From a virus, in the IMG/VR virus record IMGVR_UViG_3300046009_001560, positions 1 through 21,138 of that record: a stretch of DNA of 21,138 nucleotides; one strand, given 5' to 3'. The position numbers and the translations under genes are program-made. Of the stretch, positions 8,770 through 14,645 are shown in pieces. The number at the start of each line of letters is the position of its first letter. Position 1 is the first letter of the stretch. Under the pieces are notes generated by a model that had not been told where the DNA came from, did not search any database, and saw only the letters and a list, made by a program, of their open reading frames with translations.

Positions 8770-8955
8770 ATGATGACCCTAGAACAGATACGCCACGCAC
8801 TTTCAGACCGAATGCCAATCAAGGTGGCAGAGGCCACTGGCGTTCACTACAACACCATTCGCCAAGTGCGAGATAACCCCAAAGCAAACCCCACGCACAA
8901 AGTCTTGCAGGCTTTGTCGGACTATTTGGAAAGCCGGAAGGTGACGCATGGCTGA
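8770..8955 (+). CDS. Cro/CI-type HTH regulator (61 aa)
   Basis: The protein starts MMTLEQIRHALSDRMPIKVA and has one helix-turn-helix of XRE/Cro type (IKVAEATGVHYNTIRQVRDN, about 17-36). LQALSDYLE then forms a closing helix. AAGGAC lies 5 bases before ATG 8770; the second ATG at 8773 is an equal choice. It is the first rightward gene after a divergent promoter region, the classic place of a Cro-like switch. No opposing CI-like repressor gene is in the window. Its stop overlaps the next start by 8 bases. Confidence 0.85.
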   Translation: MMTLEQIRHALSDRMPIKVAEATGVHYNTIRQVRDNPKANPTHKVLQALSDYLESRKVTHG

Positions 8956-9775
8956 TCCTTTCAAGATCACAGAGCCGACCTGCATCAGCTTTAGTGGTGG
9001 CCGCACCAGTGCTTACATGCTTTGGCGGGTGCTTCAGGCTCACCAGATGAGCCTGCCTGATGAGGCAATTGTGTGTTTTGCCAACACCGGCAAGGAGGAT
9101 GAAGCAACCTTGCGCTTTGTTCAGGACTGTTCAGACCGATGGAATGTAGAGATTCATTGGGTTGAGTTCCAAGATGCTGATCCCGCTTTTAGGCGGGTTT
9201 CATTTGAAACTGCAAGCCGAAACGGTGAGCCATTTGAGGCTTTGATCAAGAAGCGAAACTATCTTCCAAATCCAGTTACTAGGTTTTGCACTGCCGAGTT
9301 GAAAATTCGCACCATCCACAAATATTTGAAATCTCTAGGCTGGGATCACAACGAGCAGATGGATTGGGTCGGGATGAGGGCAGATGAACAACGCCGAGCA
9401 GCCAAAATTGCTGACAAATCTCGCATCCCATTGGTGACGGCTGGCATTACAAAAGAAGATGTTGGCGCTTTCTGGAAAGCCCAGCCATTTGACCTCGGCC
9501 TTCCAAACAACAATGGGGTGACTATGCACGGGAACTGTGATCTCTGTTTTTTAAAAGGCGGGGCACAAGTTTTATCTTTGATTGCCGAAAAACCAGAACG
9601 CGGTATCTGGTGGGCCAAAATGGAGGCGTTGGCGTTGGCGTTGGCGTCCAAGCCAAGCGGCGCGGTATTTCGTTCCGACCGCCCATCCTATGCCTCAATG
9701 ATTCAATTTGCAGCAGACCAAACCGACATGTTCGACAAAAATGAAGAGGCAATCGCTTGCTTCTGTGGAGACTAA
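8948..9775 (+). CDS. PAPS reductase / DndC-like PP-loop protein
   Basis: A 275-residue protein with the PP-loop SFSGGRTS (14-21), which binds ATP or a nucleotide in PAPS reductases, DndC and related enzymes. FANTGKEDEATLRFV, RFCTAELKIRTI (C114) and VGMRADEQRR follow in the family order. GNCDLCFLKG (C197, C200) and a terminal CFC (C271, C273) could hold an iron-sulfur cluster. Phages often carry such a gene; proposed roles are DNA or nucleotide sulfur chemistry, or sulfur assimilation, and none is settled. The partners DndB/D/E are not present here. AAGGTG precedes ATG 8948. Confidence 0.88.
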   Translation: MADPFKITEPTCISFSGGRTSAYMLWRVLQAHQMSLPDEAIVCFANTGKEDEATLRFVQDCSDRWNVEIHWVEFQDADPAFRRVSFETASRNGEPFEALIKKRNYLPNPVTRFCTAELKIRTIHKYLKSLGWDHNEQMDWVGMRADEQRRAAKIADKSRIPLVTAGITKEDVGAFWKAQPFDLGLPNNNGVTMHGNCDLCFLKGGAQVLSLIAEKPERGIWWAKMEALALALASKPSGAVFRSDRPSYASMIQFAADQTDMFDKNEEAIACFCGD

Positions 9776-9778
9776 TTA

Positions 9779-11794
9779 ATGGCCAACCTTTCAAACATCC
9801 TCGGCGGCCCTTGGTCGCCACCCCCCGAGAAAATCGTTGCATCACCAGAGGCGCAGCTCATTGACGCCATCAGGGCCGCTGGCCTTGAGCCACCAGATCA
9901 CATTGAGATGGATGGCAAGATTCACCGCTTCAAATCTGGCACCAAAGGCAAGCCAGGCATCGATAAGCCAGGCTGGTATTTGGTGTTTGGCGATGGCATC
10001 CCAGCGGGTCGCTTTGGCTGCTGGAGGGCTGGCATCGAGGCCACTTTCAGGGCAGACGTTGGCCGCAAGCTCACCCACACCGAGGAAATGATCCACGTCA
10101 AGCGCCTTGCTGAGTCCAAGGCAGTGCGGGATGCGGAAATCATTCGCCAGCACCAAGTCGCCAGCGAGACGGTTGAGCAAATCTGGGCCACAGCCAACCC
10201 GGCCAGCCCCGAGCACCCTTACTTGGCCAACAAGGGCATCGGCGTGCATGGCGCACGAATCACAGGCGATGGCCGCCTGATGGTGCCCCTGTACGACCAG
10301 AACGGCACCCTCTCGAGTCTCCAGTACATTGCGCACGACGGCGGCAAGCTCTACCACCCCGGTGGTCAGACTGGCGGAAAGTTCTGGCAGCTAGGCTCAC
10401 TGGATGAGCCTGGACCACTGTATATCGCAGAAGGCTTTGCCACAGCGGCAACCATCCATGAGACCACTAACCGCCCCTGCATCGTGGCCTACAGCGCCAG
10501 CAACTTGGTGCCCGTGACCGGCAAGCTGCGCGATCTGTACGGCCCAGCCCAAGAGATCGTGATCGTTGCCGACAACGACGCCTCCGGCGTTGGCCAGCGC
10601 TACGCCGAGCAGGCCAGTGCCAAATACGGCGCTCGCACGGTGATGCCACCGGTCCAAGGAGACGCCAACGATTATGTGCAGTCCGGCAACGACCTGGCCA
10701 GCCTCCTAACCCCAACAGCAGACGACTGGCTCATCCCAGCCGATGAGTTCTCAGCCCAGCCCAGCCCCATCTCATGGCTGGTCAAGCGCTGGATTCAGGA
10801 CCAAGCCCTTGTGATGGTCCACGGCCCATCCGGTGGTGGCAAGACGTTTGTGGTGCTGGACTGGTGCCTGCGCATTGCCAGCAGCACCCCGAGCTGGTGC
10901 GGCAACAAGGTTCGCCCCGGTCATGTGGTCTATCTGGCCGGCGAGGGTCACCACGGCCTGCGAGGCCGAATTGCCGCCTGGAAGCACCACCATCAAGCAG
11001 GCAAACTGAACATGTGGCTGTCCAAGCACGGCTGCGACCTCAACACCCCAGCCGGTTACCTCAAAGTGGTCGAGCACATCCGAATGCTGCCTGAGACCCC
11101 CAAGGTGATCGTGGTCGATACCCTGCACCGCTTCCTTGCAGGCGACGAGAACAGCGCCCAAGACGCCAAGACCATGCTGGACGCCTGCGGCAACCTGATG
11201 ATGGAGTTCAACTGCACCGTCATTCTTGTCCACCACACCGGCGTCTCAGACGAAGCCCAGCACCGCGCCCGAGGCTCAAGCGCCTGGCGAGGAGCCCTCG
11301 ACATTGAGATCAGCGTCATCCCCGGCAAAGACAACCAGCCCATGCAGCTGGTCCAGCGCAAGAGCAAAGACGCCGAAATGGCCGAGCCAATCTACCTCGA
11401 CCTCCAGCAAGTCACCATCCCAGGCTGGTACGACGAGGACAACCACCCCGTCACCAGCGCCATCACCATAGAGGCCGAAGCCCCAGCCGCGCCAACCAAG
11501 AAAGACTCCAAGATCGATGGCCACCGCAAGACATGGGAAAACGCCTGGTGGGCATCCGGCGCTGAGGTCAGGGATGATCTGCCCTACCTCAGCCGGTCAG
11601 CCCTCAAAGACAAACTGACCCAAGACGGCAACGCCGAGCGCACCGTGAGGAATATGATCAATCCGTCTTACAACGACAAATTGATAGGTGCGCTGCTCCA
11701 GGCTGACATGATTCAGAACACCGAGCACGGCTGGGTGATGGTCGATGAGGTGAACGCCAGTACCATGATGATGCGGAAAAACTCAGAGCAATAA
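9779..11794 (+). CDS. Primase-helicase: Toprim domain plus RepA-like AAA helicase
   Basis: A 671-residue bifunctional replication protein. The N-terminal third includes WYLVFGDGIPAGRFGCW, the usual primase-associated domain, without a CHC2 zinc finger. The Toprim centre is IAEGFATAATIH (E218) and VIVADNDASG (D265, D267). The helicase centre has Walker A HGPSGGGKT (348-356), Walker B KVIVVDTLH (442-450), VILVHHTG (481-488) and RGSSAWRGALD, as in RepA/DnaB-like hexameric helicases. Similar fusions replicate many phages and integrative plasmids. GGAG lies 8 bases before ATG 9779. The origin-like repeats begin 12 bases after its stop, so it probably acts there. Confidence 0.93.
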   Translation: MANLSNILGGPWSPPPEKIVASPEAQLIDAIRAAGLEPPDHIEMDGKIHRFKSGTKGKPGIDKPGWYLVFGDGIPAGRFGCWRAGIEATFRADVGRKLTHTEEMIHVKRLAESKAVRDAEIIRQHQVASETVEQIWATANPASPEHPYLANKGIGVHGARITGDGRLMVPLYDQNGTLSSLQYIAHDGGKLYHPGGQTGGKFWQLGSLDEPGPLYIAEGFATAATIHETTNRPCIVAYSASNLVPVTGKLRDLYGPAQEIVIVADNDASGVGQRYAEQASAKYGARTVMPPVQGDANDYVQSGNDLASLLTPTADDWLIPADEFSAQPSPISWLVKRWIQDQALVMVHGPSGGGKTFVVLDWCLRIASSTPSWCGNKVRPGHVVYLAGEGHHGLRGRIAAWKHHHQAGKLNMWLSKHGCDLNTPAGYLKVVEHIRMLPETPKVIVVDTLHRFLAGDENSAQDAKTMLDACGNLMMEFNCTVILVHHTGVSDEAQHRARGSSAWRGALDIEISVIPGKDNQPMQLVQRKSKDAEMAEPIYLDLQQVTIPGWYDEDNHPVTSAITIEAEAPAAPTKKDSKIDGHRKTWENAWWASGAEVRDDLPYLSRSALKDKLTQDGNAERTVRNMINPSYNDKLIGALLQADMIQNTEHGWVMVDEVNASTMMMRKNSEQ

Positions 11795-11805
11795 GGAAAT
11801 TACCC

Positions 11806-11825
11806 TGTGGATAACCTGTGGATAA
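11806..11825 (-). promoter_or_regulatory. Two tandem consensus DnaA boxes
   Basis: TGTGGATAA occurs at 11806-11814 and 11817-11825, each the exact complement of the DnaA box TTATCCACA. Both have the same orientation and are one helical turn apart, which favours cooperative binding. Confidence 0.8.
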
Positions 11826-11837
11826 CTTTTATTTGGT

Positions 11838-11950
11838 TGACCCTAAATGACCCTAGGGTCAAAGTCAGGGTCAGGGTCAAAAACGGGCAAAACAGCGCCA
11901 AAGTTGACCCTCCCTGACCCCCAACCCTTTAGGGTTGGGGTCAAGGGTCA
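11838..11950. repeat. TGACCCT iteron cluster
   Basis: Exact TGACCCT is at 11838, 11848 and 11905; exact AGGGTCA at 11855, 11867, 11873 and 11944; one-base variants are at 11915 (TGACCCC) and 11937 (GGGGTCA). The pair at 11848-11861 forms a perfect 14-bp palindrome, and the copies at 11867 and 11873 share a base. Nine copies in 113 bp cannot be chance. They look like binding sites for the phage initiator. Confidence 0.8.
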
Positions 11951-11974
11951 AGGCGTTGCAGGGGTTTTAGGGTT

Positions 11975-11996
11975 GCTGAGTTTTTTGGGACTCAGC
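11975..11996. repeat. Origin hairpin GCTGAGT/ACTCAGC
   Basis: A perfect 7-bp stem with an 8-base loop (TTTTTGGG) stands one base before the third consensus DnaA box. No gene ends here. On one strand such a hairpin could serve as a single-strand priming or protein-binding site. Confidence 0.5.
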
Positions 11997-11997
11997 C

Positions 11998-12006
11998 TGT
12001 GGATAA
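11998..12006 (-). promoter_or_regulatory. Third consensus DnaA box
   Basis: TGTGGATAA, same orientation as the tandem pair 190 bp to the left; an A/T-rich stretch follows. Confidence 0.7.
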
Positions 12007-12056
12007 CTTTTCTAGTTCAATGATTTTTTGGTCGCACACTTTTTAGAGGCATGGTC

Positions 12057-12463: not shown

Positions 12464-12552
12464 TTGTCCACAGCCTCGCTGGCTGACTTGTCCACAGTTG
12501 CCTGTGCATAACCATGGCGTGCTGCAATCAGTATGCTTTTTTCTGTGCATAA
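12464..12552. promoter_or_regulatory. Cluster of four near-consensus DnaA boxes
   Basis: Two TTGTCCACA copies (12464, 12488) and two TGTGCATAA copies (12503, 12544) each differ from consensus at one position, and the two pairs face each other. They lie on the far side of the small gene from the consensus boxes. Confidence 0.55.
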
Positions 12553-12760: not shown

Positions 12761-14056
12761 ATGAGTATCACCATCACACAGCGCAGCGTAGGCGACTTAA
12801 TACCTTACGCACGGAACAGCCGCACGCACTCGGATGAGCAGGTGGCGCAGATTGCGGCGAGTATTAAGGAGTTTGGCTGGACCAACCCGATACTGGTGGA
12901 CGCCGAGGGCGTGGTGATTGCCGGGCACGGGCGACTGATGGCAGCCAGGAAGCTGGGGTATACCGAAGTCCCGACCATTGAGCTGGGCGATTTGACCGAG
13001 ACGCAGAAAAAGGCGTATGTCATTGCTGACAACCGGCTGGCGCTAAATGCCGGCTGGGACAATGAGATGCTGACCATTGAGTTAAATGAGCTGCTGGCCG
13101 ATGGGTATGCGCTGGATATTCTGGGATTTGATGCCAAGGAGCTGGACGCCCTGCTCGAGCCGGAGGTGCTCGAGGGCCTGGTGGATGAGGACGAGGTGCC
13201 CGAGGTTGGCCCCGAGCCTGTGACCAAGCCTGGAGATATTTGGGTGCTGGGGCGGCATCGATTGATGTGTGGGGACTCGACAAGCATCGAAGCTGTCGAG
13301 AAACTTACAGAGGGGAAGTTGGTTGACATGGTGTGGACCGACCCGCCTTATAACGTGGCGTATGAGGGTGGCACGGGCATGACCATTCAAAACGACGACA
13401 TGGGCGACGCGCAGTTCAAGCAATTTTTGACTGATGCGTTTGTTTCTGCATATGCGGTGACGAAAATGGGTGGGCCGATTTATATTGCGCACGCCGACTC
13501 GGAGGGGATTAACTTTCGCACGGCGATGACTGACGCGGGCTGGGACCAAAAGCAGACCTTAATCTGGGTTAAAAACTCTTTGGTCATGGGGCGCCAGGAT
13601 TATCAATGGCAGCATGAGCCTATTCTTTATGGCTGGAAGCCGGGCGCGGCGCATTGCTGGTATGGCTTTCGAGACAAGACCACCATTGTCAATGATGACG
13701 TGAAGCTGGGCAGTCTTGACAAAAAAGAGCTGGTCAAGATTATCAAGGCGATGCAGAACTCGGGCAAGACGACGATTATCCGAGAAGACAAGCCGCACCG
13801 AAACGACATTCACCCGACCATGAAGCCTGTTGCGCTGGTCCAATCGATGCTCGAGAACAGCAGCCAGGAGCGCGACACGGTGCTGGACTTGTTTGGTGGG
13901 GGCGGATCTACTCTGATTGCCTGCGAAAAAACCAAGCGCCAGGCGCGGCTGATGGAGCTTGACCCCAAGTATTGCGACGTCATCGTCAAGCGCTGGGAGG
14001 ACTTCACCGGCAAGAAGGCGGTGCTGGAGGAGCAGGATGAACTTGCAGACGCTTGA
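12761..14056 (+). CDS. ParB-like domain fused to DNA (N4/N6) methyltransferase
   Basis: A 431-residue fusion. Residues 1-90 are a ParB/Srx-type N-terminal domain (LIPYARNSRTHSDEQVAQIA, GHGRLMAARKLGY at 55-67). The methyltransferase has the catalytic DPPY at 194-197 (WTDPPYNVAYEG), a middle region probably involved in target recognition, HPTMKP (351-356), and the cofactor motif LDLFGGGGST (375-384) near the C-terminus. DPPY before FxGxGxT is the class beta order. Such ParB-methylases are frequent in phages and probably protect phage DNA or alter gene expression; the target sequence is unknown and no matching endonuclease is present. The start has no Shine-Dalgarno. The end overlaps the small terminase gene by 20 bases. 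Confidence 0.92.
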   Translation: MSITITQRSVGDLIPYARNSRTHSDEQVAQIAASIKEFGWTNPILVDAEGVVIAGHGRLMAARKLGYTEVPTIELGDLTETQKKAYVIADNRLALNAGWDNEMLTIELNELLADGYALDILGFDAKELDALLEPEVLEGLVDEDEVPEVGPEPVTKPGDIWVLGRHRLMCGDSTSIEAVEKLTEGKLVDMVWTDPPYNVAYEGGTGMTIQNDDMGDAQFKQFLTDAFVSAYAVTKMGGPIYIAHADSEGINFRTAMTDAGWDQKQTLIWVKNSLVMGRQDYQWQHEPILYGWKPGAAHCWYGFRDKTTIVNDDVKLGSLDKKELVKIIKAMQNSGKTTIIREDKPHRNDIHPTMKPVALVQSMLENSSQERDTVLDLFGGGGSTLIACEKTKRQARLMELDPKYCDVIVKRWEDFTGKKAVLEEQDELADA

Positions 14057-14645
14057 ATACACCCCAACGCCCGAGCATCGCCGGCTGGTGGAGTCGACCA
14101 GCGGCATCGGCCTGCCGTACAACGAGATCGCGGCGCTCATTGGTGTGGATGAGCAAACGCTCTTTGAGCACTATGGGCGCGAGATAGAGCTCGGCCAGGC
14201 CAAGGCCAACGGACAGGTGGCCAAGGCCATCTACAACAAAGCGGTGGACGGCGACGCCGCCTCCATCAAGCTGTGGAATGAAAACCAGAACAAAATCAAA
14301 CGGGGCCGGGGCAGGCCAAAGGGGTCGTTTAAGACGCCCATGCACAGGCTGGCTGAAAACAAGCTGCCAGAGATAATACAAAAGACCGACAATCAAAAAA
14401 TAAAAGAATTGAAAAAGATTCTTTTGGACAGTGCCGGCTCGGGTGTTGTGACGAAGGCGATTGAGATTGCGATGAACGACGACCATCCGGCGCAGGCGGC
14501 GATGATTAAGCTGTGCATGGACCGGATGCTGCCGGTGTCCATGTTTGAAAAAGAAAAGCATTTGCGTTCGGCGGTGACGATCAACATCACCGGCTTGGGG
14601 CAAGAGCCGACCATCATTGAGCCGCAGGACATAACTGATGTCTGA
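14037..14645 (+). CDS. Terminase small subunit with AT-hook
   Basis: A 202-residue DNA-binding subunit. The HTH part is YNEIAALIGVDEQTLFEHYG (28-47), followed by helices. KRGRGRPKGS (88-97) is an AT-hook, which reads the minor groove of A/T DNA. The C-terminal half (DDHPAQAAMIKLCMDRMLPV, then an ITGLG end) resembles small phage proteins around terminase genes. Start ATG 14037 has GGAGGAG 4-5 bases upstream; a longer frame starting at 13959 is inside the methyltransferase gene. It should recognise the packaging site and load the large subunit, whose gene overlaps its stop by 8 bases. Confidence 0.85.
   Translation: MNLQTLEYTPTPEHRRLVESTSGIGLPYNEIAALIGVDEQTLFEHYGREIELGQAKANGQVAKAIYNKAVDGDAASIKLWNENQNKIKRGRGRPKGSFKTPMHRLAENKLPEIIQKTDNQKIKELKKILLDSAGSGVVTKAIEIAMNDDHPAQAAMIKLCMDRMLPVSMFEKEKHLRSAVTINITGLGQEPTIIEPQDITDV

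Follow-up and report, generated by a model that had tools for sequence, protein, structure and literature searches.

The 216 bp that lie directly behind the stop codon of a 671-aa primase-helicase gene (gene 9779-11794; region 11795-12010) are very probably a phage replication origin that carries a hairpin, and the 671-aa protein would serve as its all-in-one initiator by binding the iterons. Computation established the sequence elements, how far they are conserved, and the co-variation of the iterons with a helix of the protein and of the two hairpin arms with each other. The DNA is a 21,138-base virus record, probably a fragment, which was analysed over its whole length (hereafter the window) and compared with its relatives.

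Sequence elements behind the primase-helicase gene

The window has nine TGACCC sites within 113 bp (11838-11950), seven of them TGACCCT and two TGACCCC (11915, plus strand; 11937, minus strand), against 0.22 expected by chance and a maximum of 2 in 2000 dinucleotide shuffles. The same shuffles gave 0.001 DnaA boxes of sequence TTATCCACA, compared with the three observed. When all 216-bp stretches of the window were compared, 11795-12010 came first for copies of any single hexamer. The region thus presents what characterizes an iteron origin, namely a group of short repeats adjoining a (proposed) initiator gene. A sequence-only reading had described nine TGACCCT-type heptamers in 113 bp, a 14-bp palindrome, two tandem consensus DnaA boxes plus a third, and two hairpins. 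All of them were recovered: the repeats far exceed the shuffled expectation, the palindrome TGACCCTAGGGTCA occupies 11848-11861, the boxes at 11806, 11817 and 11998 are perfect and the only perfect ones in the window, and the hairpins correspond to 11893-11958 and 11975-11996. The iterons are arranged as two dyads separated by a GGGCAAAA linker that is conserved in relatives; the right-hand dyad sits within the long hairpin, and short A/T-rich stretches adjoin DnaA boxes 2 and 3. The features are:

9779-11794, plus strand: 671-aa gene, proposed initiator (Toprim 214-303, AAA_25 320-490, winged-helix-like domain 572-671)
11492-11791, plus strand: codons of the C-terminal winged-helix-like domain, proposed to bind iterons (AlphaFold2 model, co-variation columns)
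11636-11674, plus strand: codons of helix 620-627 and residues 631-632, proposed specificity determinants (residue 625 at 11651-11653)
11806-11814, minus strand: DnaA box 1, TTATCCACA (pair spacing of 11 or 12 bp kept)
11817-11825, minus strand: DnaA box 2, TTATCCACA, pairing with box 1
11838-11844, plus strand: iteron 1, TGACCCT
11848-11854, plus strand: iteron 2, TGACCCT, left half of the 14-bp palindrome
11855-11861, minus strand: iteron 3, TGACCCT, right half of the 14-bp palindrome
11867-11873, minus strand: iteron 4, TGACCCT
11873-11879, minus strand: iteron 5, TGACCCT, overlapping iteron 4 by 1 base
11885-11892, plus strand: linker GGGCAAAA between the iteron dyads, conserved (GGC[A/G]A-type motif across loci)
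11893-11958, plus strand: main stem-loop with iterons 6-9 and loop TTTA at 11928-11931 (DNA fold, arm co-variation)
11905-11911, plus strand: iteron 6, TGACCCT
11915-11921, plus strand: iteron 7, TGACCCC
11937-11943, minus strand: iteron 8, TGACCCC
11944-11950, minus strand: iteron 9, TGACCCT
11975-11996, plus strand: second small hairpin, GCTGAGT/ACTCAGC (different or absent in other clades, by reading)
11998-12006, minus strand: DnaA box 3, TTATCCACA, 181 bp from box 2 (178-181 bp in most box-bearing relatives)
12464-12552: second DnaA-box cluster (TTGTCCACA at 12464 and 12488, plus strand; TTATGCACA at 12503 and 12544, minus strand)

Conservation among relatives

Five scans of viral contigs, together with cultured phages, yielded about 300 loci, 206 of which have distinct downstream regions, and 204 of these have enough downstream sequence to judge. 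The hosts of the cultured relatives are Salicola, Idiomarinaceae and Alteromonas; a scan of bacterial genomes found no relative. A hexamer repeat cluster above the 98th percentile of same-locus sequence windows lies behind the homologous gene in 162 of the 204 distinct relatives. The top hexamer takes 40 forms across the cluster-bearing loci (among them GGTAAC, the GGGTCA of the window, AACGGA/GGGAAC, AGGGGG, GGTACA, GGTTCA, GGGACA, CGTACA and GGACAA), but the true iteron types are somewhat fewer, since these strand-canonical hexamers include shifted readings of one iteron. The layout is constant in the relatives: forward and inverted iterons, the G-rich GGGCAAAA linker, forward iterons, a palindrome with a TTTA-type loop, and inverted iterons. 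The sequence-only reading would have given up its origin had the repeats not been conserved in relatives; cluster and layout turned out to be kept, while the letters of the repeats drift together with the neighbouring protein. About 22 relatives within L151-L190 have no repeat cluster, and another gene or unrelated sequence stands right behind their primase-helicase gene, so the origin of this clade must be elsewhere or of another type. One further relative (L284) has a GGTAAC-type helix, yet unrelated sequence follows its gene.

The 671-aa protein

The 671-aa protein is a Toprim primase combined with an RSF1010-RepA-like SF4 helicase and a C-terminal domain that is winged-helix-like in its predicted structure. 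Pfam recognizes Toprim_3 (8.7e-13, residues 214-303) and AAA_25 (2e-36, residues 320-490), and PHROGs matches fall in phage primase and helicase families; no P4-type helicase family appears among its Pfam or NCBIfam matches. Its sole sequence match in the PDB is RSF1010 RepA (1g8y, E 7.9e-5, residues 322-490), the hexameric helicase of that plasmid. No Pfam family matches the final 100 residues. The winged-helix-like domain (about 572-671) is small and was modelled confidently by AlphaFold2 on 69 relatives (pLDDT 88.6); the model shows four helices (574-592, 606-615, 620-627, 635-641), then a wing of two strands and a final helix. Foldseek returned nothing significant for this domain (best E 0.18) and VIA-align gave middling matches (Z up to 7.1), many of them winged-helix proteins. 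The P4 alpha domain is absent among the matches listed by both programs, and the two domains may still be kin.

Co-variation of the iterons with the C-terminal domain

The identity of the iterons follows the C-terminal domain of the protein encoded beside them. All 596 variable columns of the protein were scanned in 164 iteron-bearing loci (12788 pairs), the identity of the remaining protein being controlled for, and the best 20 of the 596 columns tracking iteron identity all fall in residues 612-668, with N625 at the top (0.494, against 0.003 for the median column). Since the scan took in every column, the C-terminal domain picked itself. A finer comparison was made among 65 relatives with more than 70% identity to L063, whose iterons are of the GGTAAC or the GG(G)AAC type. 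Residue 625 separates all 65, since the 33 loci of the GGTAAC type all have Q there and the 32 of the GG(G)AAC type all have V or T. Its mutual information with the iteron class is 1.000 of 1.000 bit, followed by residues 632 (0.957) and 631 (0.721), the next column reaching 0.401. The class switched 13 times on the best tree (residues 1-560), and at least 9 times on supported branches. Residue 625 follows the class in 9 of 9 independent pairs (sign test p 0.0039, a value that is not independent of the choice of column 625, which was picked on the same data). Residue 625 is no universal code, and alone it does not predict the iteron in distant relatives; some more distant GGTAAC-type relatives have M or L there (by reading). 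Because the sequence of the iterons co-varies with its C-terminal domain, the 671-aa protein is a candidate iteron binder, as the co-variation suggests.

The same pattern could arise if the 3' end of the gene were swapped along with the iterons as a linked cassette, residue 625 hitch-hiking rather than determining the binding. The helix codons and the iterons do lie within about 200 bp of each other, and the frequency of class switches on the gene tree suggests recombination. The most telling pair of loci is L063 and L071, whose genes are 92-100% identical, dropping to 82% at the helix codons and returning to 100% over the last 80 bp; beyond the gene, identity is 60-72% in the iteron region and then 87-95%. 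The helix codons and the iterons thus form two islands of difference around 80 identical bp, not a single linked block, although other pairs are less clean. Moreover, the helix correlates with the iterons more strongly (up to 0.49) than columns 640-671, whose mean is 0.11 although they are nearer to the iterons on the DNA. A functional coupling is therefore the better reading of these sequences than a block exchange, and the cassette seems improbable.

The hairpin and its linker

Folded as single-stranded DNA, 11882-11965 reaches -24.5 kcal/mol (z = -4.5), and it contains the 66-nt main hairpin. A palindrome could be recognised in 80 non-redundant loci; 45 of these have a TTTA loop, and 64 have a GGC[A/G]A-type linker about 41 nt 5' of the loop, compared with 18% expected from shuffles. 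GGGCAA is found in 17 of 30 iteron classes. For 48 distinct arm pairs the share of Watson-Crick pairs is 86%, compared with 39% (at most 49%) after the right arms were dealt between loci. The 86% is partly so by construction, because the palindromes were chosen on pairing (at least 6 of 8). The information lies in the variation of the arms between loci at a constant place in the module (each of pairs 1-7 is seen as several base-pair types) and in their length, which exceeds that in shuffles (mean 7.9 versus 4.8). The outer arm may partly hold iteron sequence and the inner arms are mostly free of it. Base-stem complementarity is 6.36 for cognate and 5.88 for non-cognate flanks, a small difference between related sequences with conserved motifs.

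The DnaA boxes

Where DnaA boxes are present, the usual arrangement is a pair spaced by 11 or 12 bp on one side of the iterons and a third box on the other, about 178-181 bp further on. All are on the minus strand in the clade of the window and all on the plus strand in the GGTAAC and GG(G)AAC clades, and 116 of the 204 distinct loci have none within 260 bp of the gene. Other TGACCC-type relatives have second clusters similar to that of the window about 600-880 bp behind the gene. Two of this type (L025 and L047) are without the first set of boxes but have a rich second cluster, which in L025 consists of two inverted box groups with 11-bp spacing. Since the boxes occur only in some lineages and are flipped together between clades, DnaA is probably an accessory factor, a helper that lineages seem to have gained, lost and re-oriented. 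The proposal that host DnaA and a phage protein bind the origin together stands in part: the co-variation backs the 671-aa protein as the iteron binder, but joint binding with DnaA can at most be a lineage trait, given the loci that lack the boxes.

Alternative functions of the repeats

Iterons and DnaA boxes can also serve as regulatory sites, and the repeats might be an operator by which the primase-helicase or another phage regulator controls its own or the next gene, replication starting elsewhere. A small reading frame does begin at 12051, about 100 bp past the last iteron. However, no sigma-70-type promoter was found between 11600 and 12800, and the sequence behind the module differs between relatives (by reading). 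The iterons also lie behind the rep gene and not before it, and they are not enriched within 1500 bp upstream (38 seen, 51 expected), which gives no support to upstream autoregulation. Nine sites plus a 66-nt hairpin whose arms co-vary go beyond the needs of an operator, and this explanation is considered unlikely. The strong co-varying stem-loop behind the gene could instead suggest that the module acts chiefly as RNA, perhaps as a terminator or as a stabiliser of the rep mRNA, and that the iterons merely form its stem. This appears the least credible alternative, as a terminator scan detected no terminator-like site on the plus strand at the stem and no terminator-like T run behind the hairpin on the coding strand, Rfam has no family for the hairpin region, and an RNA stem would explain neither the left iteron dyad and the DnaA boxes nor the way in which iteron sequence follows the recognition helix of the primase-helicase.

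Repeat arrays are also typical of partition (centromere) and packaging sites, and genes whose products might read such a site are nearby, namely the ParB-domain methylase at 12761 and the terminase at 14638. Yet the co-variation singles out the C-terminal domain among the 596 columns of the primase-helicase, the only protein covered by that scan, and a partition or packaging function is judged very unlikely. TIGR arrays were considered because one relative (L320), the Salicola phage CGphi29, carries TasH and is cited as the carrier of a TasH TIGR system (PMC12045711). Judged by layout, the inverted and direct hexamers around a palindrome do not look like such an array.

A model for initiation

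From these sequences we infer iteron binding, origin activity, hairpin extrusion, a priming site and a role for DnaA, which could be assembled as follows. The C-terminal winged-helix-like domain would bind the TGACCC(T) iterons, helix 620-627 and residues 631-633 providing base specificity, and the bound protein would thereby have its RepA-like hexameric helicase and its Toprim primase in place at the origin. The duplex would then open and the hairpin be extruded, or the single strand would fold, leaving the conserved GGGCAAAA next to the hairpin base as a candidate loading or priming site. In the lineage of the window, host DnaA on the flanking boxes probably aids opening or the recruitment of the replisome. 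The primer might be extended by host enzymes or the host polymerase, a step proposed because four cultured relatives have no annotated full-length DNA polymerase (according to their annotation).

GC skew, which had been put forward as a check on the origin, gives a divided answer. The turn falls at the site in the window, with the minimum at 11644, and of 14 other genomes two agree, being offset by -161 and -357 bp. In four cultured phages it turns 1.1-2.5 kb upstream, near the switch in gene direction, which it follows there, and in others it turns elsewhere. It was accordingly rejected as an origin marker.

It is conceivable, though we advance it tentatively, that these loci represent a distinct class of phage origins, in which a fused primase-helicase-initiator reads iterons in the stem of an extrudable hairpin. 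Diversifying selection would act on iterons and recognition helix, the advantage being for instance evasion of satellites, of rival phages or of nucleases directed at the origin, and a few changes around residue 625 would have repeatedly re-written the identity of the origin.

Comparison with known replication systems

The helicase of P4 alpha belongs to SF3, the P4 origin has a separate crr element, and P4 is not known to have DnaA boxes; here, in contrast, the helicase is an RSF1010-RepA-like SF4 enzyme (AAA_25), and the hairpin that immediately follows the gene contains iterons and has DnaA boxes on either side. The two proteins resemble each other in uniting a Toprim primase, a helicase and a C-terminal winged helix (here a predicted model). 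Membership of the P4-alpha family, which would require an SF3 (P4-type) helicase, was rejected, the AAA_25 match (2e-36) and the match to RSF1010 RepA having been found instead. In the P4 system, the alpha protein, with its Toprim primase, hexameric helicase and winged helix, binds repeats in the origin and then unwinds and primes (PMC4234260).

With RSF1010 the present system shares a RepA-type helicase, by sequence homology over residues 322-490, as well as iterons and stem-loops. The oriV of RSF1010 uses RepC, RepA and RepB' with iterons and ssi stem-loops for priming (PMC4234260). The three proteins are separate there, and the ssi hairpins are small and stand away from the iterons, whereas a single protein and a single iteron-containing hairpin are found here. 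pRN1 needs a stem-loop behind its replication gene, and the origins of pRN1 (ORF904) and of phage BIP-1 consist of a stem-loop of roughly 100 nt directly behind a primase-helicase gene with a C-terminal winged helix (PMC4234260). The likeness lies in the stem-loop behind the replication gene, kept in structure and variable in sequence. Those systems have an archaeo-eukaryotic primase, an SF3 helicase and no iterons, unlike the Toprim primase, SF4 helicase and clear iterons described here. Since both primase and helicase (Toprim and AAA_25) differ, the locus was not assigned to the pRN1 type. By analogy, the present system would work like a fusion of the P4 alpha, RSF1010 and pRN1 modes.

The Rep proteins of the plasmids P1, F, RK2 and pSC101 have winged helices but are not known to have a helicase or a primase. 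These plasmids combine iterons with DnaA boxes, P1 having two arrays, and inverting one DnaA box of RK2 abolishes replication (PMC4980987). The clade of the window and others likewise have iterons with consensus DnaA boxes at conserved places, but in contrast to RK2 all boxes flip together between clades and are missing in other clades. In the PLE satellites of Vibrio cholerae the initiator RepA and its iterons change together, and an origin-directed nuclease may drive the change (PMC8263062). The PLE iterons are semi-palindromes of about 30 bp, the initiator has a RepA_N domain, and whole domains are exchanged in a few PLEs (PMC8263062), whereas here the iterons are hexamers to heptamers and the change is resolved nearly to single residues over about 40 hexamers.

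Iteron origins, P4 alpha, RSF1010 and pRN1 are thus already known, but the present combination and its natural specificity code were not found described; the openly accessible literature searched, outside which most subscription papers lie, held no description of this origin type. The roughly 160 natural initiator-origin pairs, with about 40 hexamers, constitute a ready-made experiment on changing the DNA specificity of an initiator, in which the change is resolved down to single residues with repeated independent switches. They allow a direct and cheap test of origin incompatibility between phages, would permit the prediction of origins in uncultured aquatic phages of this group, and offer orthogonal origin-initiator pairs as possible laboratory tools. 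They also raise the question of what drives so fast a change in an essential site.

Neighbouring genes and other repeats

Long runs of six-base repeats (GCCGTA/GCCGGA, GCCAGA/GCCATA) occur in L089 (about 1801-2050), L098 (about 701-950) and L284 (about 651-900); one reverse-strand frame reads them as Gly-Tyr/Gly-Ser repeats, perhaps of a glycine-rich protein. Directly upstream of the primase-helicase gene, the window has a PAPS-reductase-like gene (8948-9775), a place that in the cultured relatives is taken by no more than a small gene, which the annotation of three of them calls a transcriptional regulator. A 61-aa HTH-like reading frame at 8770-8955, which has no Pfam match and whose start overlaps a lone TGACCCT at 8774, occupies the place of the XRE/Cro gene of relatives. 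On the other side of the module, 12761-14056 encodes an N6/N4 DNA methylase fused to a ParB N-terminal domain.
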